A stretch of DNA of 64,000 nucleotides from Chloroflexota bacterium (lineage in GTDB: Bacteria > Chloroflexota > Dehalococcoidia > UBA2979): positions 1-64,000 of the forward strand of contig PBBA01000003.1 of the NCBI GenBank assembly GCA_002716405.1. The letters run 5' to 3'. The notes under the pieces are model-generated. The model did not search any database. It had not been told where the DNA came from and was given only the letters and a program-made list of their open reading frames with translations. Position 1 is the stretch's first letter; each line of letters opens with the position of its first letter. Both the position numbers and the translations under genes were made by a program. This document shows, piece after piece, positions 22,778 to 60,155 of this stretch.

Positions 22778-22795
22778 TTACTGATCGGTTGGAAA

Positions 22796-25738: not shown

Positions 25739-26914
25739 TTAATTCTCGACTCGTAACGTCTTGACACCGCCATTAGTGACCTCATATTTACTAGCTGTCG
25801 GCAAAAATTGCTCTTGCACAATATTTTCATCAGGAACAGTAATAAAAACTTGATCAACTTGATAAGACATATTGATCACTTTATCTCTATGATTCGAATC
25901 CAACTCTGACAGAATGTCATCTAAAAGTAAGACTGGCGGATCACTTGTAATTTCAGTTGAAAGGTTAACTTCAGATAATCGTAATGCTAATACAGCGGTT
26001 CGTTGTTCTCCTCTTGAAGCAGCACTAGCAGCACTTTTACCATCGATTAAGAAATTCACGTCATCACGATGAGGACCGAATCTAGAACTACCTCGTAATA
26101 AATCACCTTGTCTTCCTTCGAGAATGATCTTATGCATCTCACTCGCTAAATCAAATGTTTCCATTTCCTTATCAAACTTAATAGGCAATCCAGGAAGGTA
26201 ACCAATAGAGAAATTTTTATCTTCATCACCTAATTCTGAATAATGTCTTTCTGCTCCATTTGCCAATTTATCAAGTACTACTTGTCTTTCAAGGAGGATG
26301 ACTGCGCCGATCTCAGCCATTTCTTGATCCCAAAAATCTAATTCATCAACGGACCCGCGTCGATCTCTGATGTTACGAAGTAAATTATTTCTTTGAACTA
26401 GAATTCGATTATATCTCTGTAGTGCACGGACATATTCTCGATTGAATTGAGAGATAGTAATATCTAGATAACGCCTTCTATCTGCAGGGGAACCAGTAAT
26501 AATCGTAAGGTCATCAACTGAAAACATTACTACGCGTAAGTGACCTACAAAATCTGAAGCACGTCTATTGATTCCATTCACACGAAAACGTCTGCTACTT
26601 TGCCATTCCAAGCTATTGCGATGTTTTGTTGAAGAAATAGCTATTTCTAAATTAACAGAGAATTTTAATCCTTCAACTTCTGCAAAAATTCTTGCAGTTG
26701 GGAACTCTTCTTCTTCAAATGCATCCCAGCTGAGTATTTCAATCTCTTTTGCATGCCGGTGACTTTTAGTTGTAGCAAGTTGTGAAATTGCATCTAATAG
26801 ATTAGATTTTCCTGAGGCATTTTTTCCTATGAAAATATATACGCCCGGATTAAAATTAATTTTTAATTCACGATATGTGCGAACATTTTGCATAAGAAGG
26901 TGTGTTAAATACAT
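25739..26914 (-). CDS. recF: DNA replication/repair protein RecF
   Basis: An SMC-like ATPase that with RecO/RecR loads RecA at gaps. The start MYLTHLLMQNVRTYRELKI, Walker A IGKNASGKSNLLDAI (about 29-43), signature region ASRGEQRTAVLALRLSEV and Walker B PPVLLLDDILSELD are all RecF-specific, and 391 aa is normal. It is not beside dnaN or gyrB, as it often is; its neighbours are a VOC gene and a divergent oxidoreductase. The genome also encodes SbcCD/HerA-NurA, so both gap and end repair appear to be present. Confidence 0.95.
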   Translation of the reverse strand: MYLTHLLMQNVRTYRELKINFNPGVYIFIGKNASGKSNLLDAISQLATTKSHRHAKEIEILSWDAFEEEEFPTARIFAEVEGLKFSVNLEIAISSTKHRNSLEWQSSRRFRVNGINRRASDFVGHLRVVMFSVDDLTIITGSPADRRRYLDITISQFNREYVRALQRYNRILVQRNNLLRNIRDRRGSVDELDFWDQEMAEIGAVILLERQVVLDKLANGAERHYSELGDEDKNFSIGYLPGLPIKFDKEMETFDLASEMHKIILEGRQGDLLRGSSRFGPHRDDVNFLIDGKSAASAASRGEQRTAVLALRLSEVNLSTEITSDPPVLLLDDILSELDSNHRDKVINMSYQVDQVFITVPDENIVQEQFLPTASKYEVTNGGVKTLRVEN

Positions 26915-28044: not shown

Positions 28045-28470
28045 ATGAATTTTAGAATTTATAGATTTGAAGAAAATATTGAGGAAAAACCATCACTAAA
28101 AAATTTTCTCATCAACTATATGGGCAATTTTTTTGGTCTAGCAATTGCAAGTTTATTAATTACAGGAGTTTCTGTAGATGATCTTCCATCATTAGTAGCA
28201 GCGACTGCAATTTTTGCAATAATCCATACCTTCATTAAACCTTTTGCCTACCTTGTATCTTGCTGTTTAATTGCAGTGACATTCGGATTCTTTATTTTTG
28301 TGATTAATGCTCTCTTACTCATTATGACTTCAAAAATATCAACTTCATTAGGATTAACTTTTAATGTAGAAAATTTTATATCAGCATTCCTCGGAGCATT
28401 AATCATTACAGTCATTTCATCGATTAACAGGTATATTTTTCGAAAACGTATAAATAAAAAAACTTTCTAA
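28045..28470 (+). CDS. Small membrane protein of the phage-holin-4/YvlD type
   Basis: A 141-aa protein with four hydrophobic segments: NYMGNFFGLAIASLLITGVSV, LVAATAIFAIIHTFIKPFAYL, LIAVTFGFFIFVINALLLIM and FISAFLGALIITVISS. The N-x-IKP-like second segment fits PF04020 membrane proteins (YvlD), which despite the holin name are ordinary chromosomal genes. The charged C-terminal RKRINKK is cytoplasmic by the positive-inside rule. Function is unknown. The stop overlaps the convergent formate dehydrogenase stop by four bases. Confidence 0.72.
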   Translation: MNFRIYRFEENIEEKPSLKNFLINYMGNFFGLAIASLLITGVSVDDLPSLVAATAIFAIIHTFIKPFAYLVSCCLIAVTFGFFIFVINALLLIMTSKISTSLGLTFNVENFISAFLGALIITVISSINRYIFRKRINKKTF

Positions 28471-31250
28471 AAATTATTTTTCAATACACGTTTTTTTCCT
28501 TGCCGAGCAGGAGTACCTGGAGGCTCTATGCGTACTGCACATGCTTTATATTCTGGAATACCAGCGAGAGTATCAAGTTCATCATTTGTCAAAAAATTTG
28601 CTGCGACCCCTTCTAATTGAACAAAGGGAACAAATAATTCACCACGACGTTGGCGTTTACCTGTTTGCACTTGTGCGATAATTTCACCTCGACGAGAAGC
28701 TAATTGCACATCATCACCATCTTGTAAACCTAATTGAATTGCATCGTCAATATTAATATCCACAGTAACCACTGGTACCATATCAACCAATCCTTTTACA
28801 CGACGTGTAATAACACCACCGTGCCAATGATACAAAGTTCTCCCTGTGATTAATGTGAATGGGAATCTCTTGGATGGAAGTTCTGCAGAAGGTGGTCCTT
28901 GTCGAACTCCAACAAATTTACCTCTTCCACGTGGGAATTCTTCAGTAAATAATCGAGGAGTCCCTGGGTGATTACGATCAGGACATGGCCATTGTATACC
29001 ACCTTCACGATCTAATCGCTCGTGTGATAAACCACCTATAATAGGCATTAAAGAAGACATCTCATCAAAAATATCTGAGGCAGATTCATGCGAAAATCCT
29101 TCATCAGAACGTCCTAGTATTCTTAAGACTCTTCGAGCAATTTCACTGATTATTTTCCAGTCTTCTCGTGCTTCCCCAGGAGAATTCACAATTCTACGGA
29201 CAAGTTGTACTCGCCGTTCACTATTAGTAAACGTGCCATCTTTTTCAGCAAATGCAGCGGCAGGTAGTACAACATCAGCAATTTCTGCAGTTTCATGCAT
29301 AAAAATATCTTGAACTACTAGAAAAGATAATTTTTCAAATGCCTCTGTAGCATGTGCTAAAAATGGATCTGATAAAAGTGGGTTTTCACCTACGACATAC
29401 ATTGTATTGATATCACCTGTAAGCATCGATTCAATCATTGCCGTAGACTGTAGCCCTTTTTCAGAAGTAAGTGTAGTATTCCAAGCAGTAGACCATCTGT
29501 CATGGCTTTCAATTGCATCCACTGACTCATAGCCTGGGAAAACATTTGGAAGGCAGCCAACATCTGAGCAACCTTGAACATTATTTTGACCTCGCAGTGG
29601 TGAAATTCCATTACCAACTCCACCTACTTGACCACATAGCAAAGCAAGATTAATCAACGCACGAGCATTATCTGAGCCCATAGTATGTTGAGTAACACCC
29701 ATACCCCATATAGTACATGAACCTCGAGAGTCTCCTTCTTTTGAAAGTGGAGGAGCTGCGAATAATCTTGCAGCACGACGAATATCATGAGCTGACACGC
29801 CACAAATTTTTTCTGCATCCTCAGGAGAAACTTGTTCAACAGTTTCTTTCCATTCTTCAAATCCTTCAGTTCGTTGTTCGATGAAAGATTGAGATTCCAA
29901 TTTTTCTTCCAAAATTATATTTGCCATTGCATTTAATAATGCGACATCAGTTCCAGGGCGTGGTTGGAGATGTACTGTAGCTACTTCGCATAATTCAATT
30001 TCGATAGGATTTATAACAACCAATGCTGCGTCATTTTCTTGCACAGCCTTCCGCAATCGAGAAGCAATAACTGGATGATTTTGTGATGTATCACTACCAA
30101 CTACAAGTAATGTTCCAGCCTGTTCGTAATCTAAGTATGAATTACTGGTAGCACCTGAACCTACTTGCTCCATTAAGGCTACAACAGATGGTGCATGACA
30201 TAGACGAGAACAATGATCTATTGAATTAGTTTGCATTACTGCACGAACAAATTTTTGCTGAATGTAACCATCTTCATTCGTCGCTTTTGCAGAGGCAATT
30301 GAAGCGAAACTACCTTGAGCTTCGACAAATTTTTCTGCAACCAATTGTAATGCTTCCTCCCATGAAGCAGATTGTAATTGGCCATTTCGTCGAATTAATG
30401 GAGTGGTTAATCGCTCTTCAGAATGTACAAAATCAAGTCCGAACCGACCTTTCACACATGTCATACCTAATGAAGATTGATTATTTTGATCACCGTCAAC
30501 CCATACTATCTTTTCTTCTGCACGATGTACTACTAGACCGCAACCAACTCCACAATATGGACATGTCGTACTTACGCTATCAGTATCTTGCCCCATACGA
30601 TGACTTGAAGAAGATCCGATCAATGTTTTTGGCAACAATGCTCCTGTTGGACACTCTGACACACATTGACCACAAGATGTGCAATTAGACTCCCTCCAAG
30701 AAACATTAAAAGCCGATCCTACTTGAGCTGTTTCACCTAGGCCATTTATTCCAATAGCACCAATATGCTGTGTGTTTTGACATGCATCAACGCATCGACC
30801 ACAGAGTATGCAATCATTCATATCTAAAGAGAAAAATACGTTAGACTCATCTTTGTATGATCGTGGATTTGGTATATATGTCGAAGAATCTAACCCATGT
30901 GAATTTGCATAAAGAGTAGCTTGACCTTGACCACGACCATCTGCAGACATCCCTATCGTTAAATCTAATACACCACGCCTAATTCGATTAGTACGCTCAG
31001 AATCTGTAGATATTTCCATACCTTCTGCAACAGGTGTATGACAAGCAGCGACCAATCGAGAACTACCAGAAATTTCAACTAAACATGTCCGACAAGCACC
31101 AAGTGGACCTTGTGCATCACTTTTACACAAATGCGGAATGTCAATTTTGCAAGACAAAATCGCATCAAGTATCATACTGCCTGCAACAACTTCGGCCTTC
31201 ACACCATCGATTGTAATTTGGAGTAATTTTGGAGTTACCTCGAGCGACAT
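28467..31250 (-). CDS. fdhA: Formate dehydrogenase catalytic subunit (Mo/W-bisPGD), Cys-type
   Basis: A 927-aa FdhA of the soluble NAD+-linked kind. From the N-terminus: a [2Fe-2S] domain (CKSDAQGPLGACRTC, residues about 42-56), two ferredoxin [4Fe-4S] clusters (CILCGRCVDAC, CTSCGQCVSECP), the MopB cluster CPYCGVGCG and the Mo/W ligand Cys at about 349 in DHCSRLCHAPS, where selenium enzymes have Sec. A C-terminal molybdopterin-dinucleotide-binding region (LITGRTLYHWHGG onward) is complete. ATG 31250 is chosen over TTG 31256 because AAGGA lies seven bases upstream. It oxidises formate (or reduces CO2) together with the two subunits encoded just upstream. Confidence 0.93.
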   Translation of the reverse strand: MSLEVTPKLLQITIDGVKAEVVAGSMILDAILSCKIDIPHLCKSDAQGPLGACRTCLVEISGSSRLVAACHTPVAEGMEISTDSERTNRIRRGVLDLTIGMSADGRGQGQATLYANSHGLDSSTYIPNPRSYKDESNVFFSLDMNDCILCGRCVDACQNTQHIGAIGINGLGETAQVGSAFNVSWRESNCTSCGQCVSECPTGALLPKTLIGSSSSHRMGQDTDSVSTTCPYCGVGCGLVVHRAEEKIVWVDGDQNNQSSLGMTCVKGRFGLDFVHSEERLTTPLIRRNGQLQSASWEEALQLVAEKFVEAQGSFASIASAKATNEDGYIQQKFVRAVMQTNSIDHCSRLCHAPSVVALMEQVGSGATSNSYLDYEQAGTLLVVGSDTSQNHPVIASRLRKAVQENDAALVVINPIEIELCEVATVHLQPRPGTDVALLNAMANIILEEKLESQSFIEQRTEGFEEWKETVEQVSPEDAEKICGVSAHDIRRAARLFAAPPLSKEGDSRGSCTIWGMGVTQHTMGSDNARALINLALLCGQVGGVGNGISPLRGQNNVQGCSDVGCLPNVFPGYESVDAIESHDRWSTAWNTTLTSEKGLQSTAMIESMLTGDINTMYVVGENPLLSDPFLAHATEAFEKLSFLVVQDIFMHETAEIADVVLPAAAFAEKDGTFTNSERRVQLVRRIVNSPGEAREDWKIISEIARRVLRILGRSDEGFSHESASDIFDEMSSLMPIIGGLSHERLDREGGIQWPCPDRNHPGTPRLFTEEFPRGRGKFVGVRQGPPSAELPSKRFPFTLITGRTLYHWHGGVITRRVKGLVDMVPVVTVDINIDDAIQLGLQDGDDVQLASRRGEIIAQVQTGKRQRRGELFVPFVQLEGVAANFLTNDELDTLAGIPEYKACAVRIEPPGTPARQGKKRVLKNNF

Positions 31251-31297
31251 CGACAAGTCCTTAATGTGATCTTCTTCTACAATAATTATAAAAAGAG

Positions 31298-32773
31298 TTA
31301 ACTATTATCAAATTCATGCTTGAACTGTTCCAGTGCTGATAAAACTGGTCTCCCAGCCATCCCGCCCAACTGACAAAGCGAACTCTCAGTCATAATTTCA
31401 ACTAATTCATAAATTTTCTTTTCATTTCCTTGTGTATTTTCCAAAAGAGCTGTTAGACGCTCTGAACCTTCTCGGCATGGTGTACATTCACCACATGATT
31501 CTCTTTTATTATAAGCTGCGAGAGAATTAGTAATGTGTTGAATGTCAGCATTTGAATTCAAAACAACGACCCCACCAGCTCCTAATTTCGACATTTCTAG
31601 AACATCATCAAATTGTTGAAAATGAATAAATTCTCCAGATGGACCGCCTACTAATAATGCTTTTATTTCTTGAGGATTTCTACCTGCATTAGCTATCATC
31701 CCCGACCATGTCATAGCACCGTCTACTGGAACTTCATACAAACCAGCTCTAGGTATATCACCTGACAGTGAAATTAATTTAGTTTGAAGCGGAGGATTGT
31801 CAAAAAGAGTAGTTACTGCACACAAAGTCTCGACATTATTGATTACTGTTGGTTTCCCAAACAAACCAACATCTGTAGCAAAAGGCGGTTTATAACGAGG
31901 GACAGGTCTTTTACCTTCAATGCTGTTCAAAATGACAGATTCTTCACCGCAAACATAACCACCAGCACCTGAACGTATATTAATTGTTAGTTGAAAGTTG
32001 CGATCCCAACATTCCCCGCTAATGATCCCAGCTTCTCCTGCATCTGACAATGCCTTCTCAAGGCTAAGTTGTGCTTGTCTTGCCTGACCATTGACGTATA
32101 TGTATACAGCCTCGAACCCTACTGCGTGGTGTGCAATAAGGACACCTTCTAGCAATCGATGAGGATCACCCTCAAGCATATGTCTGTCCTTGAAGACACC
32201 GGGCTCACCTTCTTCAGCATTCACTACCAAAATTTTTTGTTGATCTGAATGTGTTCTTGCAAATCGCCACTTTTGTGCCACAGGAAAGTGTGCACCACCC
32301 CTTCCGGTAAGCCCAATTTCAGAGAGTCTATTAATAACTTCTTCAGGTGAAAGCTGTAACACACGATCTAATGCCGTATAAGCACCTTGTGATAAAACAT
32401 CGCCAAGAGAACCATCATTTCGACCCATTCGGGATGTGATACCTTTTTCTCCTGTTCCAGCATATCTTGCAGCATCCCCACAATTTCCATGAAAACATTC
32501 AATCAACTCATCAACTCCATTAAGATCAAGTCTTTCAAATCTGCGCATAAAAGTCCCTTGAGCTACAGTTGCAGATGGAGCAGCCCAATTTGCTCCGTCT
32601 GAACAAACGTCAACAACAAGATGGGACTTTCCTTCAAGTATTCTTCGAATACGATCACCATATTCAGAAACTCCTACTGCATCTCCAGCAGTACCTCGAT
32701 GTATCAAAATACGAGAGATAGGGGGAGCAACATACTTTGTTCTTAATCTAGCCAGAGGATGTAGTGCGTTCAT
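31298..32773 (-). CDS. fdhB: Formate dehydrogenase NADH-binding subunit (NuoF/FdhB-like)
   Basis: A 491-aa flavoprotein that passes electrons between NAD(H) and the Fe-S chain. FMN/NADH motifs LTGRGGAHFPVAQKWRFA and NAEEGEPGVFKDRHMLEGDPH are present, then GAGGYVCGEESVILNSIEGKR and the [4Fe-4S] site ESCGECTPCREGSERL with SLCQLGG. ATG 32773 is chosen because it overlaps the upstream stop as ATGA and has GGTGA before it; another in-frame ATG at 32785 exists. The N-terminal 100 residues correspond to the thioredoxin-like part of fused FdhB proteins, but only Cys residues near VDVCSDGAN and HGNCGD are visible. Confidence 0.92.
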   Translation of the reverse strand: MNALHPLARLRTKYVAPPISRILIHRGTAGDAVGVSEYGDRIRRILEGKSHLVVDVCSDGANWAAPSATVAQGTFMRRFERLDLNGVDELIECFHGNCGDAARYAGTGEKGITSRMGRNDGSLGDVLSQGAYTALDRVLQLSPEEVINRLSEIGLTGRGGAHFPVAQKWRFARTHSDQQKILVVNAEEGEPGVFKDRHMLEGDPHRLLEGVLIAHHAVGFEAVYIYVNGQARQAQLSLEKALSDAGEAGIISGECWDRNFQLTINIRSGAGGYVCGEESVILNSIEGKRPVPRYKPPFATDVGLFGKPTVINNVETLCAVTTLFDNPPLQTKLISLSGDIPRAGLYEVPVDGAMTWSGMIANAGRNPQEIKALLVGGPSGEFIHFQQFDDVLEMSKLGAGGVVVLNSNADIQHITNSLAAYNKRESCGECTPCREGSERLTALLENTQGNEKKIYELVEIMTESSLCQLGGMAGRPVLSALEQFKHEFDNS

Positions 32774-33201
32774 TTTTTCACCCATTCTTGGAAGTTATCT
32801 GTAGTTACACGACCATAGAGTTGTTCATGCTGATCAACTACAACAGGTGCTAAAGCACATAAAAATTGGCAATCAATTTGTTCAACATTATCAACACAAG
32901 TTATTAACTCTGATGCACCAGCAAGGTCACAGGCCACACCCATACATACATGCCATTTAAAAGGGGTTGGTTTTAAAAGATTTAGCTCAGAGTAACCGGT
33001 AGCAATTGAATAGACTTCAGAAAGGGGAAGCATTAGATGATTAGCAACATACTCTATTGAAGCTTCAGGTAACCAATGTAATTTCTGTTGAAAAATTTCC
33101 AGCGCAGGTAAAAGTTGGTCACGTTTTTTTGGTAACTTACCAACTGCAATTTTCGCTTCACGAAATGCTTCAGATGTAGAATCGAATGTTTCTTCTTTCA
33201 T
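32770..33201 (-). CDS. fdhG: Formate dehydrogenase small [2Fe-2S] subunit (NuoE/FdhG-like)
   Basis: A 143-aa thioredoxin-fold ferredoxin. The cluster cysteines Cys86-x4-Cys91 (HVCMGVACDLAG) and Cys111-x3-Cys115 (CQFLCALAP) keep the NuoE spacing. The helical N-terminus (LLPALEIFQQKLHWLPEASIEYVA) is also NuoE-like. It is the first of three genes (G, B, A) and lies only 34 bases after sbcC, so read-through from the nuclease operon is possible. No fdhD or fdhE is in the window. Confidence 0.92.
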   Translation of the reverse strand: MKEETFDSTSEAFREAKIAVGKLPKKRDQLLPALEIFQQKLHWLPEASIEYVANHLMLPLSEVYSIATGYSELNLLKPTPFKWHVCMGVACDLAGASELITCVDNVEQIDCQFLCALAPVVVDQHEQLYGRVTTDNFQEWVKK

Positions 33202-33235: not shown

Positions 33236-35986
33236 TTATTCAGCTATATAACTTAGATTTCCATTCTTAATCACTTCAATGCGATCGGGAATGCGTTCTC
33301 CTAATTCTCCAACATGTGAGATAACGCCAACCAATCTAGAACCTCCAGCTAAGGTTTCTAAACCTTGTACTGCAAGATCCAAGGATTCAACATCAAGGGT
33401 ACCGAAACCTTCATCCAAAAATAAGGATTCAAGTGACATGCCACCACCAAGCCCAGATAATTCAGGTAAATGCTCAGAAAGAGAGAGTGCCAATGCCAAA
33501 CTTGTGAGAAAACTTTCACCACCTGATAAAGTTTTTACAGATCTTTTTTCGTCACCATTCAACCGATCAACGACAGAGAAATCTCCTGATTCAGCAATCA
33601 ATTCGTATCGGCCATTTGTAAATCTATCAAGCCAAGATGAAGTATCCGTAGCTAATGAATTCATTGCTTCTGTTTGAACAAATTCAATAAATCTTGAACT
33701 TTGTAATTCGGTAGCAAGGCTTTTATGTAATTCTCCAGTTTTGCGTTTATCTTTAATTTCTTGGCGCATTCTGACAGCAGACTTGCGTTCATTTTGGGCT
33801 TGCAACAATTGAGCTTCAAGGGATCCAACTAGAGCATTGTTTTCATTTTCCTCGTTTTGATGTGCTTCCATAATACGCCGTAACTTTTCAAAATCTGGTT
33901 CTCCGTCTTTTTCAATCGTAACGTTCCATTTTTGTTTTAAATCTGCATTTAATTTCTTTAATATCTGCTCAACTTCATTAACAGCTTCTTCTGCATTCTG
34001 AACAATTTTTTCGTGCCGAACCACTCCGGCTTTTTGTGTATCTGCTTCAATTTTATGATCATTAATTTTGCTTTTATATGATTCAATTTTTTTGTTCATC
34101 TCTTCATATTTATCAAATAGCTGGTCATAATCTTCAATCGCCTTTTTTATCCCACTTTCAGTGATATTTGCTGTCTCTGAGTTGACTTCATTAATTTGTT
34201 GAAGCAAGTCGTTAAGTTGTTCTTCAACAATAGAAAAACCTGTATCAGCGGAAAGTAATCCATTGAATTGGTCCAATTCATTCTCCAAATCACGACACTC
34301 TTTCTCCAATTTAGAGATTTCTTCAACATTTGTAATCAATTCTTCCAGAAGAGTAATCATCCCATCAATTTCATTAGTACTCGTCCCCAGATTAACTAAG
34401 TGCTCTTCAATTGCACCCATTTTCCTTCTCACTATTTGAAGATTATCCGTGGTGATTTTAACTTGATTTTCGGCAACACTGAGCACACTAATTGATTTTG
34501 AAAAAACCTCATTTAATTTCTCAGAGTCAGCATAGGTTTTTTCAAGAGCTTCGTGCAGATCATGTAATAGCCCTTCTACAGGATTATCTTGCATAGTAAA
34601 CATCTCTTGACCACATACAGGACACAAATCACCACTTTTAAGACCACTTAATAAATCCGCAATGACATTTTCTTTTTGTGCATTCGCATATTCAGTTTGT
34701 TTTTTAATTAGCTTCTCTTCTATATTTTTTTGTTTAGCTAAAATACGATTATGCTCGAGTTGTACATTCTTAACATTTTTCTTATGAATTGCTATTTCTT
34801 CAGACAATTTTTTTTCTTCCAAAAAGTATTCAGTCAGTTGATTTTTTTGTTTTTCTATTTCACGTTGTTTTTCTTGTAACAACTGATAGATGTCCTCAAT
34901 AGGATCATTTATGTCAATCAAATCCAACGAACTACTCTTTTTTAGTAAATCCTTCTGTTTAAATACAATGTTCTTTTGATGTTCTCTTAAAGCATCTTCA
35001 GTCTCTGAGATATTTTTTTTGATCTCTCGTTGCTTGTCATTCAATTTTTTCAATTGTTCACGTTTTACCACAATTTTTAGTTGCACCTTCAATTCGTTAT
35101 GAATATCTGGGTTATATTCAAGATCTTTACGTGTTTGTATTACAAATTCAAGAGAATTTTCGAACTCCTCAATATTCTTTAATGTTGATTCCAAACTATC
35201 TTGAGTCTCCTTATAACCTTTCTTCGAATCTTCATAATTCTGATTCAGCGTCTTCAATAAACTTTCTTTTTCCCGAGTATCCGTAAAAGTGGTACCTAAT
35301 GTATGTAAAGTTTCCTTTCTTTTGGTTAATCCATCTAGAATTTGATTTGTCTTTTTTAATTGATCTTTAAATTTTTGAATATCATCAGGTGAGGAAAGTT
35401 TAAGTTGTTCAAGCTGATCTTCTATAGTTCTTGCAGTATTGTGTGCATCGTCAGCTCGTTTATTGGCAATGCTACGTGCTTTTTCATACATACTTAGACC
35501 TAGCAATTTTACTAAGATGTCACGCCTGGCTTTTATATCACTTTTCAGAAAGGCATCGAATTGACCTTGCGGTAAAATCACAGTTCGTGTGAAAGTTGAA
35601 AAATCCATACCTAAAAGGTCAACAATTTTATCTGTTACATCTCTTGAACGATCGGCTATTAAATTCCATTTTCCTTCGCCTTCTTGTATCTCTAATCTGT
35701 TGGAATTATCTGAAGGATGTTTTCTCACAACACGAAAATTTTTACCACGAGCTTGAAACTCAAATAGGACATGCATTGACTTCACACCATTTGATTTTAG
35801 TTGCGATGTTGATGCACCAACTCTAGGTACATTTCCATAAAGTGCCCACATCATGGCATCTAGTAACGATGATTTACCTGCACCAATTGAACCAGTAATC
35901 GCAAATAAAGTACGTCCTTCGAAATCCACAGATGTTTTTTCTCGGAAAACCGTAAATCCTTGTACTTCCAATCGAAGTGGCTTCAT
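33236..35986 (-). CDS. sbcC: SbcC/Rad50-type SMC ATPase
   Basis: A 916-aa SMC-type ATPase. N-terminal Walker A TGSIGAGKSSLLDAMMWALYG (about 31-50), a Q-loop near VILPQGQFDAFL, then two long coiled-coil arms around a zinc hook CPVCGQEM (about residues 454-461). The C-terminal signature LSGGESFLTSLALALSLSEHL and Walker B LFLDEGFGTLD follow. With SbcD it tethers and processes DNA ends. The size is nearer to archaeal Rad50 (about 880-900 aa) than to E. coli SbcC (1048 aa). The start overlaps the sbcD stop by four bases, as expected for a stoichiometric complex. Confidence 0.95.
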   Translation of the reverse strand: MKPLRLEVQGFTVFREKTSVDFEGRTLFAITGSIGAGKSSLLDAMMWALYGNVPRVGASTSQLKSNGVKSMHVLFEFQARGKNFRVVRKHPSDNSNRLEIQEGEGKWNLIADRSRDVTDKIVDLLGMDFSTFTRTVILPQGQFDAFLKSDIKARRDILVKLLGLSMYEKARSIANKRADDAHNTARTIEDQLEQLKLSSPDDIQKFKDQLKKTNQILDGLTKRKETLHTLGTTFTDTREKESLLKTLNQNYEDSKKGYKETQDSLESTLKNIEEFENSLEFVIQTRKDLEYNPDIHNELKVQLKIVVKREQLKKLNDKQREIKKNISETEDALREHQKNIVFKQKDLLKKSSSLDLIDINDPIEDIYQLLQEKQREIEKQKNQLTEYFLEEKKLSEEIAIHKKNVKNVQLEHNRILAKQKNIEEKLIKKQTEYANAQKENVIADLLSGLKSGDLCPVCGQEMFTMQDNPVEGLLHDLHEALEKTYADSEKLNEVFSKSISVLSVAENQVKITTDNLQIVRRKMGAIEEHLVNLGTSTNEIDGMITLLEELITNVEEISKLEKECRDLENELDQFNGLLSADTGFSIVEEQLNDLLQQINEVNSETANITESGIKKAIEDYDQLFDKYEEMNKKIESYKSKINDHKIEADTQKAGVVRHEKIVQNAEEAVNEVEQILKKLNADLKQKWNVTIEKDGEPDFEKLRRIMEAHQNEENENNALVGSLEAQLLQAQNERKSAVRMRQEIKDKRKTGELHKSLATELQSSRFIEFVQTEAMNSLATDTSSWLDRFTNGRYELIAESGDFSVVDRLNGDEKRSVKTLSGGESFLTSLALALSLSEHLPELSGLGGGMSLESLFLDEGFGTLDVESLDLAVQGLETLAGGSRLVGVISHVGELGERIPDRIEVIKNGNLSYIAE

Positions 35987-37149
35987 TGAATATTTACCAC
36001 CTCACCAAGTATTTCACGAAATAAGACAAGTAATTCATCAGATGGATTTGTTCCATGTCGTTCTTGGTAATAACGCACAAAAAGTTCTTCAGGTTTCAAA
36101 TCTTGTAATGAGACAGTAGAAATATTTTCTTCAAGCCGATCATAATCTAAACGAATATCGACTATCCCATCAGCACTATCTCGCATTTTTTGAGCTATAC
36201 CAGCTTCAGGAGCATCCACATCTAATACTGCACGTATATAAGCATTTTTATATTGTTCTGATGCAACTAAAACTTGTTCAGGTGTACCTCGTAATTCGAT
36301 TAATGGCTTACCGGAGGTCAGTGGAATAATTTTTTGCTGAACAGGTCGATTTGGAACTAGATCAACTATCCGTACTATTTTTTGTTGCCCACGTTCACCA
36401 AAATCTAACTGTAATATTGACCCCGCATAAGCTGTTGCACCGTTGGGAACTCCTAAAATTTCTTGTGGATGATGAATATGCCCTAGAGCTAAATATTGCG
36501 GACTTGAAGGTAATCGATCTTTATCTATTCCATATGCGATATCTATATGTAATCGACGTTCAGAACCGTCAATATCTGCAAGTAATGCGCCATCGACAAA
36601 TACATGACCAACTAATAAATGGATCGCTCCAGAGGTATATCCTTGTACGACATTGCTATATACGGTTTCAACTGCATCTTGATACATGCTGAGCGTTTTT
36701 TGTGCATCAGAAAGAACTTCAATCGCATTCAATGCTTTCCCATCAGGTACCCATGGAATAGCAGCAATTTCTGCCAGTACATCACCACGATTAATTCTAA
36801 TGATGCCTCCAGCATCATGTGAACGAACGTAGGCTTGTGTGTGTACATTTAGTAAATCACTCAATTGTCCAACCGCATTAAGCTTATGTGCACTATCATG
36901 ATTGCCAGCTATGAGTATTACTTCAATATCGTTAGTAACAAATTCTCTCAACGCACCGAATAATATCCTATCTGAATCAGAGGAAGGAGAATTGGTATCC
37001 CAAATATCACCTGCAACAAGTACTACATCAACATTTTCAGAAACAGCAATATCTTTAATCTCTGTTAGCACAGCTTCAAATTCTGAAGCACGACTTCGTC
37101 CACGGATTTGCCTACCAATATGCCAGTCAGCAGTATGTAAAAACCGCAT
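35983..37149 (-). CDS. sbcD: SbcD/Mre11-type nuclease
   Basis: A 388-aa Mn-dependent metallophosphoesterase that cuts DNA ends and hairpins with SbcC. Phosphoesterase motifs in order: TADWHIGRQ (Asp8, His10), VAGDIWDTNSPS (Asp48), IAGNHDSAHKL (Asn83, His84), LLVGHVFVDG and LALGHIHHPQ. The C-terminal third would be the capping and SbcC-binding region. It follows herA by 23 bases and is coupled to sbcC. Confidence 0.95.
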   Translation of the reverse strand: MRFLHTADWHIGRQIRGRSRASEFEAVLTEIKDIAVSENVDVVLVAGDIWDTNSPSSDSDRILFGALREFVTNDIEVILIAGNHDSAHKLNAVGQLSDLLNVHTQAYVRSHDAGGIIRINRGDVLAEIAAIPWVPDGKALNAIEVLSDAQKTLSMYQDAVETVYSNVVQGYTSGAIHLLVGHVFVDGALLADIDGSERRLHIDIAYGIDKDRLPSSPQYLALGHIHHPQEILGVPNGATAYAGSILQLDFGERGQQKIVRIVDLVPNRPVQQKIIPLTSGKPLIELRGTPEQVLVASEQYKNAYIRAVLDVDAPEAGIAQKMRDSADGIVDIRLDYDRLEENISTVSLQDLKPEELFVRYYQERHGTNPSDELLVLFREILGEVVNIQ

Positions 37150-37172
37150 TAAATATCCATTCCTACAATCTA

Positions 37173-38942
37173 TTAAAATCTTCCCATGATATCTCGCCCA
37201 CTGTTTTTATCTGTTGGTAAGGAAACTTCAGATTTACGAGTAGCCCAAGATGGATGAGGAAATCTTACTAACAAAGGGACAGGAATGTCCGTTTGCTGGA
37301 TAAGCATTGAACCGGGAGTTAGTAATGTCGCTCGTTGTCTTAGAGAAGAAGTCCGTAAAAATCTATATTCATTTCTTTCAACTTCAGCACCATCAAGGCG
37401 CCCTACAACTCTAAATGCCGCATTACCAACCACACGATGTTCTACTTCACTCGCAGTTTGTTGCGCTCCAATTAGTATGACACCGAGAGAACGTCCTCGT
37501 TCAGCTATATCAATTAAAATATCTTTTATAGGACTAGTACCATCACGAGGAGCGTATTTATTCAACTCATCAACAACAACAAAAATTGGTGAACGATTCG
37601 CTGACGACTCACGTTCAATCATTAGCTCATGTAGTAGAACACCAACGACAAAACGCTGTGCACGATCGTGCAATTTATGAAGATCAATAACATTAACTTG
37701 ATGTCGGCGCTCTATTCGATGAGCGTTAGTATCACTTATTTCTTTTTCAAAATACGGTTCACGAATCAGATAGCCAACATGACGAGCTGCTGAGCGTAAT
37801 CTACGCATAAACGCTCGAATTGTTCCGGTAGAAGCTGCACCTGAACCTCTTCCAGCCCAGGATGGCAATTGCTCCGTATCATATGAATCATCTTGGGAAT
37901 TGAATAAATGTAAGTCAATTTGCTCGACTAATTGATCAAAATTTTCTATCGCAATACCGTCTATCTGCATGCCTTCAGAAGAACTTTTACGAGCAGCATT
38001 TCGTAAGTGGTCGGAAACATTATCAACAAGTAAAGAAATTTGTGTTTGATCAGTATCAGCATCAACAAATAAAAATTGTAAATATCCTGATTCACAAAAT
38101 TCATGTAACGACCAGAAAAAAGCATTTACATTTTCTGACCTAGAACCAGTATCAGGAAATGGTTTTGCCTTTGAATCGCGACGCAACGGTGCATAAAACC
38201 CAACTGATTTAAATTCTCCAACAGGTAATCCTAATTTGGCATATTGATCTTTAATTTTCTTATCTTCAATTAATTTACGGTTAGGACAATCCAAAAAAAG
38301 TAGATCCTCATCTTTAACATTAAAAATTAGAGCCGTTGAATTACTGGCATCATCACCTAACACTTCTCCTTCAAATAACGAATAAAGAAGATAAGTCGCA
38401 TAAGAAGTTTTAGTTGCTACACCTGAAATCCCAGAGATATTAACATGTGCCCCTTTCTTACCATTTATAAATTCAATGTTGCCGTATACAGGCAAGGCGC
38501 CTAATACTTCACCTCGGGAAAGACCCAGAGGTAACCTTTTATCCATACCGTCAAAGAATAATGCAACCTCTCTTGATTCTTCACTAGCAATATTGACGAT
38601 GTCTCCTGGAGTCGGAGGTATGTAAATTTCTGGCTCTATACGAGTTACTGATATATGTGCTGACATTACAGATGATGCAGGTAGTACACCTTCATTGACT
38701 AATGCAACGTCAGATGTCAATTGGACTCCTTCATGTTTAGCAATTACTTCATCAACTACTCCATAAATATCTATAATTTCTCCATCAGGTAATATTGTTT
38801 GAACATGCACAACATCATCAAGTTGTAAATATCTTCCTGGAGCAACAAACACCGAAAAATCTAAAGGTTTTGCAAATTCTTGTTCTGTTCCTAATACATA
38901 GCCACGAAAATTATCGTCATTAACTGAATTATTGATCATCAT
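37173..38942 (-). CDS. herA: HerA-type hexameric DNA-translocase ATPase with variant P-loop
   Basis: A 589-aa HerA-like protein. Residues about 10-110 form a HAS-type beta barrel (YLQLDDVVHVQTILPDGEIIDIYGVVDEV). The ATPase core has ISGISGVATKTS (169-180) where HerA has GxTGSGK[ST]; the glycine before the Lys is replaced by Thr and one residue is inserted. Walker B is PIFVVVDELNKYAP (452-465), followed by a HerA-like LIGAQQTASEVEHRVVGNAAFRVVGRLD (490-517). I believe the variant P-loop occurs in related bacterial proteins, but cannot confirm it here. It lies between nurA (16 bases) and sbcD (23 bases). HerA pumps DNA into the NurA nuclease during resection. A defence-type HerA is less likely, as no DUF4297 or SIR2 partner is present. 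Confidence 0.85.
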   Translation of the reverse strand: MMINNSVNDDNFRGYVLGTEQEFAKPLDFSVFVAPGRYLQLDDVVHVQTILPDGEIIDIYGVVDEVIAKHEGVQLTSDVALVNEGVLPASSVMSAHISVTRIEPEIYIPPTPGDIVNIASEESREVALFFDGMDKRLPLGLSRGEVLGALPVYGNIEFINGKKGAHVNISGISGVATKTSYATYLLYSLFEGEVLGDDASNSTALIFNVKDEDLLFLDCPNRKLIEDKKIKDQYAKLGLPVGEFKSVGFYAPLRRDSKAKPFPDTGSRSENVNAFFWSLHEFCESGYLQFLFVDADTDQTQISLLVDNVSDHLRNAARKSSSEGMQIDGIAIENFDQLVEQIDLHLFNSQDDSYDTEQLPSWAGRGSGAASTGTIRAFMRRLRSAARHVGYLIREPYFEKEISDTNAHRIERRHQVNVIDLHKLHDRAQRFVVGVLLHELMIERESSANRSPIFVVVDELNKYAPRDGTSPIKDILIDIAERGRSLGVILIGAQQTASEVEHRVVGNAAFRVVGRLDGAEVERNEYRFLRTSSLRQRATLLTPGSMLIQQTDIPVPLLVRFPHPSWATRKSEVSLPTDKNSGRDIMGRF

Positions 38943-38958
38943 TTTTTTCTCTACCTAG

Positions 38959-39942
38959 TCACACAATTTGACGATTTACAAAACTAGTTATTTTTCTATT
39001 CAACCAGAGTTGATCACCAAGACGGTGAGTGAGTACTTTCTCTAATCTGCCTACAGGAACAAAATTATGAGGCGCACGGGGATCTTGTCCAGGTATAGAA
39101 GATAGCGCTGGTAAGATTTGTACTGATTCATCAGCTAAAACTCTTGCTTGTTCAATCGGCATAGATGCATCGGTTTCCAACCGCATTATCCCACCTAATG
39201 GATGATAGGCTGAACCAAGCTGTCTTAATCGTATAAACCAAGAGTAACGCCCACCTGATTGGGTATTATTAATTTCTGTATTGGATGGAATATGAAATAA
39301 AGGAGTTCGTTCATTAACAGCTAATCCATACAACAAGTTTCGTTGTCCGTCATTAATATACCATTGGTGGATACGCTTGATATAACCAATGACTCTTTGG
39401 CCGGGAGATCTAAGAGACCTGAGAGGTCCATCAACAAAAGTAATTTTAGATTCATCGCGGGAAAGCTCAGAAGCCAAAAGTATTTCTGCATCTAGCATAC
39501 GACGTTGAAGACTGTTTAATAAAGTTATTATGTTACTCGAATCAGGTATGCGCTGAGACTTAAATTGTAGCGATGATTTTCCCTCACTAATTGTAATCGA
39601 AGGAAAAGATCTCCCTGAATGCAGGTACACTCTTTCAACGCATATTGTATCTTCAAGTACATGGGCTTTTTCTTCACACAACACTGCTCCAACAGCAAAT
39701 GAACCAAAAAGGCCAAAAATTGCCCCTTCAACTGGATCTTCTTGCATGACATGCACTTCTGCACGGCGTACACCATCAATTATTTGCGCAGGAATTCTTG
39801 TAGCATTCTTAACAGTAATTGCATCCCATTTTTTTTGTTCAACAGCTACATCTACAGAAACTAAAACATTTTCACTATCATCCATATCGTATGACAAAGA
39901 AGTACCATATTCTGATTGCCATGGGAGTAAGCGAAGTGTCAT
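38959..39942 (-). CDS. nurA: NurA-domain nuclease
   Basis: A 327-aa protein fitting NurA, the 5'-3' exo/endonuclease partner of HerA. NurA-like acidic motifs are IIDGVRRAEVHV (Asp56) and ITFVDGPLRS (Asp171), and the C-terminal DPRAPHNFVPVGRLEKVLTHR block (288-308) matches the DPRYPxxLxxAxRL-type end of NurA proteins. The first Asp motif reads IDGV rather than the common VDGS. AGGTGG lies about five bases before the ATG. It is the first gene of the four-gene nuclease operon. Confidence 0.85.
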   Translation of the reverse strand: MTLRLLPWQSEYGTSLSYDMDDSENVLVSVDVAVEQKKWDAITVKNATRIPAQIIDGVRRAEVHVMQEDPVEGAIFGLFGSFAVGAVLCEEKAHVLEDTICVERVYLHSGRSFPSITISEGKSSLQFKSQRIPDSSNIITLLNSLQRRMLDAEILLASELSRDESKITFVDGPLRSLRSPGQRVIGYIKRIHQWYINDGQRNLLYGLAVNERTPLFHIPSNTEINNTQSGGRYSWFIRLRQLGSAYHPLGGIMRLETDASMPIEQARVLADESVQILPALSSIPGQDPRAPHNFVPVGRLEKVLTHRLGDQLWLNRKITSFVNRQIV

Positions 39943-40081: not shown

Positions 40082-40828
40082 ATGAAAAAAGATCAACCCT
40101 CAGTAAAAGAAGCTTTTACATCTTCTACAAATCGTGCAGATTATGTGCAAAGTATGTTTGGATCCATAGCAAATCGCTACGATTTTATGAATTCAATCAT
40201 GACCGGTGGGCGACATCATTTTTGGCGACGTTTGGTTGCCGAAGAATTAGTGACTCCTGGAGATATAGTAGTCGACGTGGGCTGTGGTACGGGTGACCTT
40301 AGTTTTGCCTGTCTAAAACAATCTGCCTCACAAGCTATTGGGATTGATTTTGCTCGCCCAATGCTACCCATAGCATTAGAAAAAGCTAAAAAACTTTCTA
40401 CGAAAGATAAATTTACTGTAACCGTAGGTGATGCAACGTCATTACCAATTGCTGACGACTCAGTAGATGCATGGTGTTCTGCTTTTGTAATTCGAAATAT
40501 CCCTGATATGGATGCAGCATTTTATGAGGCATGGCGAATACTTAAACCTGGAGGGAAAATAGCCATATTAGAAATCACAAAAATGCAACCAAGCCTATTG
40601 AGACCTTTTATTCGTCTTCACTTTAACCATGTGGTCCCTTTTATAGGAAAAATAATTTCTCGACATAATAGTGCTTATGAATATTTACCTGTTTCCGTAG
40701 ATCAATTTGAAACCCGAGAAGAACTTTGTGCACGTTTAGATAAAGCTGGATTTAATATTAATGTAGTTAGATCTTTGATGTTTAGAACTATAACTCTGTT
40801 AGTAGCAACAAAGCCAAAGTTACCCTAG
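40082..40828 (+). CDS. ubiE: Demethylmenaquinone methyltransferase (MenG/UbiE)
   Basis: A 248-aa SAM methyltransferase with MFGSIANRYDFMNSIMTGGRHHFWRR (residues 25-50), motif I VVDVGCGTGDLSFA, VIRNIPDMDAAFYEAWRILKPGGKIAILEITK and the UbiE-specific YEYLPVSVDQF. It makes the last methylation of menaquinone or ubiquinone; for a Chloroflexota-like genome menaquinone is likelier. It is divergent from nurA across 139 bases. Its TAG stop shares the CTAG palindrome with the stop of the convergent globin gene. Confidence 0.93.
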   Translation: MKKDQPSVKEAFTSSTNRADYVQSMFGSIANRYDFMNSIMTGGRHHFWRRLVAEELVTPGDIVVDVGCGTGDLSFACLKQSASQAIGIDFARPMLPIALEKAKKLSTKDKFTVTVGDATSLPIADDSVDAWCSAFVIRNIPDMDAAFYEAWRILKPGGKIAILEITKMQPSLLRPFIRLHFNHVVPFIGKIISRHNSAYEYLPVSVDQFETREELCARLDKAGFNINVVRSLMFRTITLLVATKPKLP

Positions 40829-41439: not shown

Positions 41440-43248
41440 ATGTCGCCGTTTCCCGGCTTTTTAAAGCGTCTGGTTGGAGAAAATTCCCAATCAAAAACAC
41501 AAACAAAACAACGAAAATCGAAAAATAATCGAAAAACAACACAAAAGGAAAAACATAACAAACAAAATAATTCTCAAAACCAAACAAATGTAGTTAGAAA
41601 TAAAGCGAAAAACGCTAAAAGACCTACTCGCCGCAATTCTTCATCTAATCAAGTACAACGATCTCAAAGTATGCAGAAGGAACATATTCCTAAAGATCGT
41701 AAAGAAAGTTACGCATGGGGAAGTGTTGCTGATGACGATGGCAAAAAAGAATTACTCAATGAACGTCGAAGACAATCACAAAGACGTTGGGGACAATTCA
41801 ACCCTAGAAGAAAAACTTTAGAAGTACCTCTACCTGAAGATGTAGCATTTCGTTCTATCGAAGATGGTGGTGCGGGAAATATTCTCCCAAGCAAAAGAAA
41901 TCGACCCCTAGGGATTAAGTCTACTGAACGAGTGATCGTTGGAGGTGCACGTTCGCTAGGTGGTATCCCCGTTATTGGTGATTACCATGCTACTTTAGAG
42001 AAAAATGAAAAACAGCTAGAAACTGCGAAAAAAAATGAACCCGTAGTAATAGATAAAATTATTTCAGACAAGATAAATCATTCTGAAGCAACCAGCATCA
42101 CAGAAGATAATGACAAAATTGAACCGATAGCAAAACATAGTTTTGAAGACCTAGGCTTAGATAGTCAATCTCTCAAGTCAGTTAGCAAACTAGGATTCAA
42201 CAACCCGACACCGATCCAAGAGAAATCAATCCCAGAATTACTAGCTGGACACGATACCGTAGGTCTAGCACAAACAGGAAGCGGGAAAACTCTTGCCTTT
42301 TCTTTACCAATGATGCAATCAATAGATCCGAAGTTAGAAGAAGTACAGGCCATCGTGCTCGTACCTACTAGAGAATTAGCTCAACAAGTACTAGAAGTAG
42401 TTACGTCACTTGGAGGTGATCGAAACATACGAGCAATCGGATTATTAGGTGGTCATTCAGTAAAACAGGACCTAAGAAATTTAAACAAACCGACTCAGAT
42501 AGTTGTAGGCACACCTGGTCGTATTATCGACCACTTGCAGCGCAATACGCTAACACTAAAAAAGGTTAAATATGCAGTACTTGATGAGGCTGACCAAATG
42601 TTAGATATAGGTTTCCTACCAGATATTAGAAAAATTCTTGGTAGAACCCCCAAAAGCAGACAGACTATTCTTTTCTCTGCAACAATGCCAACACAAATCC
42701 GTAGATTAGTTTGGCAATTTATGTCAGAAGCCGTGACAATAAAAGTAGATTCAGAATTAAGTACGGTCGATAGTATTACACAAGTTTATTTTGAAGTTGC
42801 AGAACGCGACAAAATTAACGGGTTACTCGAATTAATAGAAAGTGAACTTAGAGGAAGAACTCTCGTATTTTGCAATATGCGACGTGGAGTTGATGATGTA
42901 GCTGATCAATTAAAACAGAACTCCATTAAAGTTGGAGCGCTACATGGGGATATGGACCAGAAAAAGCGTGACCAAGTGGTTAACCTATTTCGAAAGGGAA
43001 ATTTAGATATATTAATTGCAACTAATGTTGCAGCAAGAGGTATTGACATACCTGAAATTACCCATGTTGTTAATTTTGATTTACCACAGAATACAGAAGA
43101 ATATATTCATCGAATCGGGCGCACTGGTCGTGCTGGTCGAAATGGAAAGGCAATTACTTTTGTGAGTGAATGGGATTTTGAAAGATTTATGCAAATATCT
43201 GAACAGCTTGAACAAACAATCCTTCAAGAACACCTAACTTTCTATTAA
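41440..43248 (+). CDS. DEAD-box RNA helicase with long basic N-terminal extension
   Basis: A 602-aa helicase. Residues 1-235 are a Lys/Arg/Asn/Gln-rich, apparently disordered extension, densest in 18-80 (QTKQRKSKNNRKTTQKEKHN and more). The core follows: Q motif about 243-260 (GFNNPTPIQ), Walker A AQTGSGKT (277-284), PTRELAQQ, VGTPGRI, DEADQMLDIGF, SAT, then domain 2 with LHGDMDQKKRD, ATNVAARGIDI and YIHRIGRTGRAGR. It unwinds short RNA duplexes in ribosome assembly or decay; the basic tail probably binds RNA. It ends a base from the convergent hydrolase stop. Extensions normally sit at the C-terminus of bacterial DEAD-box proteins, so an N-terminal one is notable. Confidence 0.94.
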   Translation: MSPFPGFLKRLVGENSQSKTQTKQRKSKNNRKTTQKEKHNKQNNSQNQTNVVRNKAKNAKRPTRRNSSSNQVQRSQSMQKEHIPKDRKESYAWGSVADDDGKKELLNERRRQSQRRWGQFNPRRKTLEVPLPEDVAFRSIEDGGAGNILPSKRNRPLGIKSTERVIVGGARSLGGIPVIGDYHATLEKNEKQLETAKKNEPVVIDKIISDKINHSEATSITEDNDKIEPIAKHSFEDLGLDSQSLKSVSKLGFNNPTPIQEKSIPELLAGHDTVGLAQTGSGKTLAFSLPMMQSIDPKLEEVQAIVLVPTRELAQQVLEVVTSLGGDRNIRAIGLLGGHSVKQDLRNLNKPTQIVVGTPGRIIDHLQRNTLTLKKVKYAVLDEADQMLDIGFLPDIRKILGRTPKSRQTILFSATMPTQIRRLVWQFMSEAVTIKVDSELSTVDSITQVYFEVAERDKINGLLELIESELRGRTLVFCNMRRGVDDVADQLKQNSIKVGALHGDMDQKKRDQVVNLFRKGNLDILIATNVAARGIDIPEITHVVNFDLPQNTEEYIHRIGRTGRAGRNGKAITFVSEWDFERFMQISEQLEQTILQEHLTFY

Positions 43249-44198: not shown

Positions 44199-45845
44199 AT
44201 GATGTCTTCAATTTCAAATTCTAAAGATATTTTTCATTCCAATCAGGTTTTACCAGATTATGTCAATGCTTTACTTAACCCAGAAACTTATGATTTCGAT
44301 GTTAATGAAATTACATTAATCCAAACACATATTTCATATGTTTTCCTTACAGGTGAAAGAGTTTATAAAACTAAAAAACCAGTCAATTTTGGTTTTATCA
44401 ACCAACTTGACTTAAAGCAACGTCATAAAAATTGCATCCAAGAAATAGAGCTAAATAAGAGATTAGCTCCTGATATTTATACAAATATAGTCACGATCGC
44501 AAAATCACGATCAGGTGAATTTAAAATTTTCACAGACAACATTAAAGAAGACTTCATTATAGTTGAGTATGCAGTTGAAATGAAACAACTACCCAGTAAG
44601 GCTATTTTGGGAAATATTCTAGAAAAAGGTACAGTACCTAAAGAATTTTCACGTCAGTTTGCTGAACTTCTATTAGACTTTCACTCAAAAAATAGCTCGC
44701 AAAATTCTACCATCAAATTTGCTGGAGAATCTGCTATGAAAAATTGGTGGGTCAGAGAAAGTCAAGAAGCATCAAAGTTTATTGGTTCAACTTGGAATCC
44801 AAAAGAGGCTGAAGAATTTAATGAGACAATTCAAAAATTTTTAAAACAAAATACCGAACTCCTAAATAATCGTACCCGCCAAGGAAATATCGTTGAAGGT
44901 CATGGTGATTTACATTCCATGCACGTTTATCTGTTAGATGAAAAAATCGTGATAGTAGATTGCATTGAATTTAACGATTGGTTCAATTTTCGAATTCTTG
45001 ATAAAGGATATGATATCGCTTTTATAGCCATGGATTTGGAAGCCAGAGGATTTCCTGAAATAGGAGATGATATTGTGGGAAGGTATATTGTTGCATCTGG
45101 TGATGAAACCTTACCCGTACTACAACCATTACATCGTGCTTTTCGAGCTTTCGTAAGAGGTAAAGTCGAATCAATAGAATCCCAACAAATAGGTATACCC
45201 ACTAAGCAAAAAAGAGAAAAAGCAAAGTCAGCAAGTGAGTATTTTTCACTAGCGACAAAATTAATTGGTAAAGGAAAAGAACCAGTGCTAGTCCTGATGT
45301 GTGGACTATCTGGTACAGGAAAATCTACTATCGGATCCCAATTATGTGCACGTATAGGCGCAGCATACCTATCATCAGATATTGTTCGAAAAAAAATTGC
45401 TGATCTTCCCTTATACGGTAAAATTTCAAGGCAACAAAGAGATGAAATTTATAGTGCGAAAATGACGGAACAAACCTATCGAAATATGCGAGAAAAAGCA
45501 GAACAATATATCCAAAAAGGTTATTCAGTCATTCTAGATGCTACATATACAAACATACTAGATAGAAAAAAAGTATTAGACATAGCCAGAAAATATAATT
45601 ACAAAACTTTAATCATCGACCTAAAAACTACAGAATCAGAGGCACTTAGCCGTATCGCATACAGAATGTTTGATCACTTAAATGTCTCTGATGCCACCTC
45701 AGCAATATATCGTGGACAAGTCGAACAATTAGTGCCGATTACAGAAAAAGAGGGAACAGTAATGGTGATAGAAAATAATGATTCTCCGTATAAGATAGTT
45801 CAGCAAATAATACAAAAAATATCCCTGCTAACTGATAACAAATAA
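44199..45845 (+). CDS. APH-like kinase fused to a P-loop kinase domain
   Basis: A 548-aa two-domain protein. The N-terminal half resembles aminoglycoside phosphotransferases, with the catalytic-loop segment VEGHGDLHSMHVYLL (about 232-246) and the metal Asp in IVDCIEFNDW. The C-terminal half is a P-loop kinase with Walker A GLSGTGKST (369-377) and a later VILDATYTNILDR. Proteins with this APH plus zeta-toxin/gluconate-kinase-like fusion are known as conserved hypotheticals; antibiotic resistance should not be assumed. ATG codons at 44199 and 44202 are both possible, and no clear Shine-Dalgarno sequence is visible. The acyl-CoA dehydrogenase gene follows after 12 bases. Confidence 0.78.
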   Translation: MMSSISNSKDIFHSNQVLPDYVNALLNPETYDFDVNEITLIQTHISYVFLTGERVYKTKKPVNFGFINQLDLKQRHKNCIQEIELNKRLAPDIYTNIVTIAKSRSGEFKIFTDNIKEDFIIVEYAVEMKQLPSKAILGNILEKGTVPKEFSRQFAELLLDFHSKNSSQNSTIKFAGESAMKNWWVRESQEASKFIGSTWNPKEAEEFNETIQKFLKQNTELLNNRTRQGNIVEGHGDLHSMHVYLLDEKIVIVDCIEFNDWFNFRILDKGYDIAFIAMDLEARGFPEIGDDIVGRYIVASGDETLPVLQPLHRAFRAFVRGKVESIESQQIGIPTKQKREKAKSASEYFSLATKLIGKGKEPVLVLMCGLSGTGKSTIGSQLCARIGAAYLSSDIVRKKIADLPLYGKISRQQRDEIYSAKMTEQTYRNMREKAEQYIQKGYSVILDATYTNILDRKKVLDIARKYNYKTLIIDLKTTESEALSRIAYRMFDHLNVSDATSAIYRGQVEQLVPITEKEGTVMVIENNDSPYKIVQQIIQKISLLTDNK

Positions 45846-59500: not shown

Positions 59501-60034
59501 TTAATCGTCTTGTGAATCAGAAATCAAAAATTCCTTCGCATGTCCGTTACTACCAGGACAACCTATACATTTTCCATCTATATTCAACACTTGACCACAT
59601 AACTTACAAAGTGGGCGCCCACCTGCAACAACTACCTCAATAATAGAACTCAAATTAATTGCCTGAGATCTACTAAATGACATACTAAATGAAGGCCTCT
59701 CCATAGATGTCATTGCAGCTTCATCATCAACATTAACGATAATGCATTGCATCCCTGCATCAAATTCTAATGAAATTCTTAATGCCTGTATGTCTATATC
59801 TGGATTCGAAGGAAATACATCAATTGCATTTACTACATCAACAGGTTGGCCTCTTTCTTCAGACTGTTCTGCTAATAATTGAGATATTGAACGTCCCAAC
59901 TGTGCTAATTCTTGTTTTTCCAACCATATTGTTGCAAATTGTCCTTCTTTAACGACACGAACACGGAAAATTCGTTGGCCAGGTTCACCTATTGCCTCCG
60001 CGTCAATTGCATCAACCAAACCAAAATCAATCAT
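59501..60034 (-). CDS. DUF3090-family protein with C-terminal zinc-ribbon-like motif
   Basis: A 177-aa protein matching DUF3090, found mainly in Actinobacteria and Chloroflexota. The core IGEPGQRIFRVRVV and GQFATIWLEKQELAQLGRSI, then RPSFSMSFSRSQA, are characteristic, and the C-terminus has Cys143-x2-Cys146 and Cys156-x2-Cys159 (CKLCGQVLNIDGKCIGCPG), a zinc-ribbon-like pair. Function is unknown. It lies immediately upstream of ilvD in the same transcript. Its phylum bias supports the taxonomic inference made for the window. Confidence 0.85.
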   Translation of the reverse strand: MIDFGLVDAIDAEAIGEPGQRIFRVRVVKEGQFATIWLEKQELAQLGRSISQLLAEQSEERGQPVDVVNAIDVFPSNPDIDIQALRISLEFDAGMQCIIVNVDDEAAMTSMERPSFSMSFSRSQAINLSSIIEVVVAGGRPLCKLCGQVLNIDGKCIGCPGSNGHAKEFLISDSQDD

Positions 60035-60155
60035 TTATTCTCCCTATTCTCCTAGGATCAGGTTATGCTCAACTTTACGATTGAAACACCAAAGATCAAC
60101 TATTAGTATCTATTGCTTTTTTATAAGATAGAATTGTAATTGAAAGAAGATAAAA

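Follow-up and report, generated by a model that had tools for sequence, protein, structure and literature searches.

A conserved nurA-herA-sbcD-sbcC operon of bacterial type in the SAR202 lineage of Dehalococcoidia

Background

In archaea such as Sulfolobus and Pyrococcus, the genes herA, mre11, rad50 and nurA form one operon, and in S. islandicus all four are essential (PMC4351679). NurA and HerA are already known from several bacterial phyla (PMC8708640), and the reported identity between the archaeal and the bacterial NurA-HerA proteins is below 20% (PMC9960219). A bacterial complex has been described from Deinococcus radiodurans (PDB 7f6d; PMC9960219), in which HerA translocation goes with stepwise cutting of the 5' strand by NurA and the 3' strand is largely spared. 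The D. radiodurans genes form a nurA-herA operon that is not clustered with sbcCD (PMC8708640). The exact four-gene order, nurA-hepA-sbcD-sbcC, was published in 2017 for the bacterium Oceanithermus profundus, and described there as sbcCD having been recruited in a single genus of Thermales (PMC5448004). No account of the four-gene operon being widespread in bacteria was found in the literature, of which our coverage is partial, with some key older work lying outside it. Here we analyse such an operon in a window of 64,000 nucleotides (the whole stretch of DNA studied) from contig PBBA01000003.1 of a Chloroflexota bacterium.

Organization of the operon and identity of its genes

Four intact open reading frames, nurA-herA-sbcD-sbcC, lie contiguously on the minus strand at 33236-39942 (Table 1). 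Spacers of 16 bases between nurA and herA and of 23 bases between herA and sbcD, together with a 4-base overlap between sbcD and sbcC, match exactly the layout described in an earlier, sequence-only reading of this DNA. The gene identities that it proposed are backed by Pfam, PDB sequences and NCBIfam, and its statement that the genome encodes RecF is borne out by a score of 294 bits with TIGR00611 (cut-off 172). Promoter and terminator scans gave a signal no higher than in shuffled sequence.

Table 1. Position and nature of the operon genes and of two further genes in the window
Gene	Coordinates	Strand	Description
nurA	38959-39942	minus	327 aa; RNase H-like nuclease, bacterial (Deinococcus/Thermotoga) type
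herA	37173-38942	minus	589 aa; hexameric HerA/FtsK-family DNA translocase, Deinococcus type
sbcD (bacterial Mre11)	35983-37149	minus	388 aa; intact phosphoesterase motifs; TIGR00619 above cut-off
sbcC (bacterial Rad50)	33236-35986	minus	916 aa; Walker A, CPVC zinc hook, LSGGE, Walker B
ubiE/menG methyltransferase	40082-40828	plus	divergent upstream neighbour of nurA; outside the machine
recF	25739-26914	minus	separate locus; likely component of a downstream RecA-loading pathway

Pfam recognizes NurA above its cut-off, SbcD through SbcD_C and Metallophos, and SbcC through AAA_23 and the SbcC Walker B domain; HerA has a match to DUF87 only, below the cut-off. HerA carries a Walker A motif (GISGVATKT, residues 171-179) and a Walker B motif (VVVDE, 455-459), and SbcD has the complete set DWH, GDIWD, GNHD, GHV and GHIH. 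The SbcC motifs of Table 1 belong to a split ATPase, whose Walker B, SLFLDEGFG, lies outside the strict motif pattern used and was detected by the Pfam model. The subfamily model TIGR00619 gives SbcD 160 bits (cut-off 77.65); for SbcC, TIGR00618 scores highest of all models at 263 bits, yet below its own cut-off of 478.5.

An AlphaFold2 model of NurA (mean pLDDT 84.6) has as its best solved match the Deinococcus NurA (7f6d_G, probability 1.00), followed by that of Thermotoga, and is weakly similar to one chain of the complex TdpAB, a defence system. Model and alignment together point to an RNase H-like fold with its catalytic acids in place. Loss of these acids, raised earlier as a possible objection, did not occur: the comparison of 91 near-full-length bacterial NurA sequences shows no variation at D56, E153, D171 or E256, which rules out a decayed NurA.

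Several other genes surround the operon. A set encoding a formate dehydrogenase alpha-like subunit, a NuoF-like and a NuoE-like protein (28467-33201, minus strand) starts 34 bases past sbcC; the NuoE/NuoF neighbours are present in two close relatives (L042 and L044), and none were seen in more distant ones. On the plus strand, 44199-45845 encodes a 548-aa protein with a zeta-toxin/AAA_33-like kinase domain as its C-terminal half, and 21368-24823 an AAA (AAA_5-type) ATPase and, after it, a protein with a von Willebrand A domain, an arrangement reminiscent of a MoxR-VWA pair.

The four proteins are of bacterial type

The sequence-only reading took the locus for an archaeal set of genes residing in a bacterium. 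A takeover of the whole operon from a thermophilic archaeon would account for the gene set shared with archaea, and for the Deinococcus-Thermus genes some authors have suggested descent from archaea (PMC12977600, PMC5448004). The sequences point the other way. HerA is similar over its full length to D. radiodurans HerA (E=2.7e-131, residues 13-574), whereas Sulfolobus HerA is reached only at E=0.25, even with a family profile. With the HerA family profile, a 592-aa 'DNA helicase' that we take to be Thermococcus HerA (9x1l) gives E 0.0066. The NCBIfam HerA model gives only 24 bits against a cut-off of 970. For NurA, the only plausible PDB matches at E up to 10 are the Deinococcus and Thermotoga proteins, with no archaeal NurA among them. 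The match of SbcD to E. coli SbcD spans residues 1-303 (1e-25), that to an archaeal Mre11 (1ii7) 93 residues (about 1e-12), and SbcD scores 160-185 bits with the best bacterial NCBIfam models against 63 with archaeal Mre11; SbcC likewise scores 263 bits with the bacterial model against 131 with archaeal Rad50. Closest relatives among archaea were thus found for none of the operon proteins in the PDB, profile and NCBIfam comparisons.

Judged by sequence, all four proteins are bacterial in type, and the label 'archaeal-style' is wrong as to origin. What is shared with the archaeal operon is the functional set and its grouping into a single operon; the proteins here differ, and the similarity of HerA and NurA between the two domains is at the edge of detection. 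A tree of HerA did not reject the family proteins as one clade (p-AU 0.56), in keeping with a single bacterial lineage. Of the two origins left open earlier, acquired or ancestral, the second stands, in that the operon appears ancestral and vertically kept within the family, and no sign of recent archaeal transfer was seen. We regard acquisition of the operon from an archaeon as very improbable and reject it on grounds of sequence similarity; an ancient transfer, earlier than the bacterial radiation, is still compatible with the data.

Resemblance to D. radiodurans extends to full-length HerA homology, NurA fold and acids, and the nurA-herA operon. Among the acids D78/E80/D81 through which D. 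radiodurans HerA contacts NurA, D78 alone is conserved in the aligned window HerA.

Conservation and distribution of the operon

HerA was found in 42 of the 44 genomes of the family to which the window belongs (Dehalococcoidia/SAR202), among them every one of the 15 best assemblies; the two in which it was not found have a completeness of 67% and 76%. The order nurA-herA-sbcD is the same in 28 of 30 loci from the family and class, and nearly all 28 also show the start of sbcC in the short stretches compared. The other two loci have sbcD roughly 2 kb farther along; one of their stretches extends far enough to show sbcC, which comes after sbcD there. Since nearly all family loci keep this order, down to about 40% HerA identity, a chance adjacency of the four genes is ruled out. 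Most family loci with enough sequence also have ubiE divergently upstream, a neighbour that marks a fixed locus. Named loci identical or nearly identical to that of the window bear the labels Dehalococcoidia, SAR202 or Chloroflexi. Within the phylum the family is unusual, because only 11 genomes of a 301-genome sample of Chloroflexota contain a strong full-length HerA match (>500 bits).

HerA itself varies within the family. Congeners (L006, L009, L043 and L044) have a HerA only about 63-68% identical to that of the window, against 77-80% for NurA and SbcD; HerA in that branch seems from these identities to have evolved faster or to have been exchanged. A divergent, long-branch HerA occurs in L027-L031 (genera g8, g9 and g15 of the same family), where nurA is still adjacent and sbcD-sbcC lies either immediately next to the gene or about 2 kb away. 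One family member (G011) has two different HerA genes, on contigs C11 and C12.

A scan of public genomes extended the linkage beyond Chloroflexota. The best 80 named loci are all bacterial, and 58 hold all four genes together; several of the other 22 are interrupted by contig ends. Nine of the 58 have the order nurA-herA-sbcD-sbcC. The remaining 49, most of them from Actinomycetota and Gemmatimonadota, read herA-sbcD-sbcC-nurA. Among these best 80 loci, four-gene sets occur in Actinomycetota, Gemmatimonadota, Acidobacteriota and other phyla. The loci of Micromonosporaceae, Acidimicrobiia and Gemmatimonadota contain the same genes, with HerA about 50% identical to that of the window, but nurA comes last in them and first here. 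In some relatives apparently unrelated genes lie between herA and sbcD. The O. profundus locus agrees with that of the window in its four genes and their order; the linkage described here differs in being family-wide and present in other phyla.

Other end-processing enzymes

Repair genes were checked by family-level searches. The genus of the window is represented by three sampled genomes, one of them 94% complete, and statements of absence rest mainly on the congeners because the genome of the window is 84.5% complete. Searches with the PD-(D/E)XK nuclease domain (positive in E. coli and B. subtilis controls) and with AddA found no AddAB/RecBCD in the three genomes, and no UvrD-type helicase fused to a PD-(D/E)XK nuclease. 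In the window's genome the sole AddA match is a 752-aa UvrD/PcrA-like frame. The only PD-(D/E)XK protein of the genus, common to all three genomes, is a stand-alone 271-aa nuclease that is Cas4/RecB-like (weakly Cas4-like) and was rejected as AddAB (G000:C4, about 59543-60358; L132:2044-2859); it is a possible extra end-processing nuclease. No genome of the three, not even the 94%-complete one, gave a RecQ score above the cut-off, and the only good RecQ match, at 42187-43227 of the window, is a DEAD-box RNA helicase (41440-43248). Ku was likewise not found in the three genomes, the 94%-complete one included. RecJ is present in the genus; RecO was missed in the window's genome, but the 94%-complete congener has it. 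Two genomes represent genus g5 (83% and 88% complete); they retain the operon, and RecJ was not found in them.

This pattern agrees with the earlier suggestion that the genes could form a complete end-resection machine: neither RecBCD nor AddAB was found in the three sampled genomes. The reverse picture, a standard enzyme beside a linkage that relatives do not conserve, is not what the genus and its relatives present. Elsewhere in the family strong AddB-type matches occur in 10 of 44 genomes, and fragmented assemblies may conceal a few more; relatives have true AddAB pairs, confirmed in one, and AddAB accompanies the operon in about a quarter of the family.

Proposed function

The best explanation overall, and one that we consider reasonably likely, is that the operon resects DNA ends and feeds RecFOR and RecA. 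SbcC-SbcD would bind broken, blocked or hairpin ends and open them by nicking; a HerA hexamer would then load on the duplex and pump DNA into a NurA dimer, in which the strands would part and the 5' strand would be cut repeatedly, leaving a 3' tail. On this tail RecA could be loaded with the help of RecFOR, perhaps together with RecJ. Complex formation, strand polarity, the cooperation of SbcCD with NurA-HerA and the role as main pathway are what we infer from the comparisons. The full-length match of HerA to D. radiodurans HerA, a NurA model whose top match lies within a HerA-NurA complex, the gene order conserved in the family and the linkage in several phyla all argue for such a function. 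Since the searches of the genus turned up no AddAB/RecBCD, RecQ or Ku, double-strand breaks here are probably resected mainly by the products of this operon.

End resection by HerA-NurA in cells is disputed. Deletion of nurA or herA in D. radiodurans or T. thermophilus results in modest or even improved damage resistance (PMC9960219), and Thermococcus HerA-NurA cuts both strands, the authors of that 2026 study doubting end resection and proposing an antiviral role (PMC12977600). NurA-HerA might instead serve mainly to destroy foreign linear double-stranded DNA, with SbcCD as a companion nuclease. HerA homologues do act with Sir2 or DUF4297 in defence, degradation of both strands by the Thermococcus pair would suit such a role (PMC12977600), and the NurA model and HerA show faint likenesses to TdpAB and to PADLOC models, respectively. 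We nevertheless judge an anti-phage role unlikely. The genes occupy a housekeeping locus by ubiE and are near-universal in the family, unlike patchy mobile defence genes; they are linked to sbcCD; and PADLOC gives nothing for NurA and just 16-32 bits for HerA. No Sir2 or DUF4297 effector of a defence-type HerA adjoins the gene, whose neighbours are nurA and sbcD, and the fixed locus and weak PADLOC scores likewise disfavour a defence island. A housekeeping role is favoured by the fixed locus and the near-universal presence in the family. Repair and defence are not exclusive, RecBCD doing both.

The operon could also house two independent machines, SbcCD acting on hairpins or palindromes and NurA-HerA, for example, in replication-fork or chromosome processing. 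The separation of nurA-herA from sbcCD in Deinococcus and Thermus (PMC8708640, PMC5448004) and the unrelated genes that part herA from sbcD in some loci would fit such a division. Against it stand the recurrence of the four-gene linkage in several phyla and in two orders, as in archaea, and the contact of archaeal Mre11 with HerA (PMC2288612), and we hold two separate machines to be quite unlikely.

Returning to end resection, we suggest more tentatively, with slightly less than even confidence, that in the streamlined SAR202 genera g1 (that of the window) and g5 the operon would be the sole end-resection helicase-nuclease, AddAB/RecBCD, RecQ and Ku having been lost, so that the archaeal four-protein logic would start recombination with bacterial proteins and RecA.

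Implications

What our analysis adds is the breadth of the operon, together with an apparent absence of the usual enzymes from streamlined marine genera. Far from being a hallmark of archaea, the four-gene resection operon recurs in several bacterial phyla, and cultivable actinomycetes, Micromonospora and Actinoplanes for example, are among its carriers. Genomes with the operon and without AddAB/RecBCD, RecQ and Ku offer a natural setting for the dispute over HerA-NurA resection. The operon matters mainly because its small-genome marine host seems to be without the usual bacterial end-trimming enzymes.
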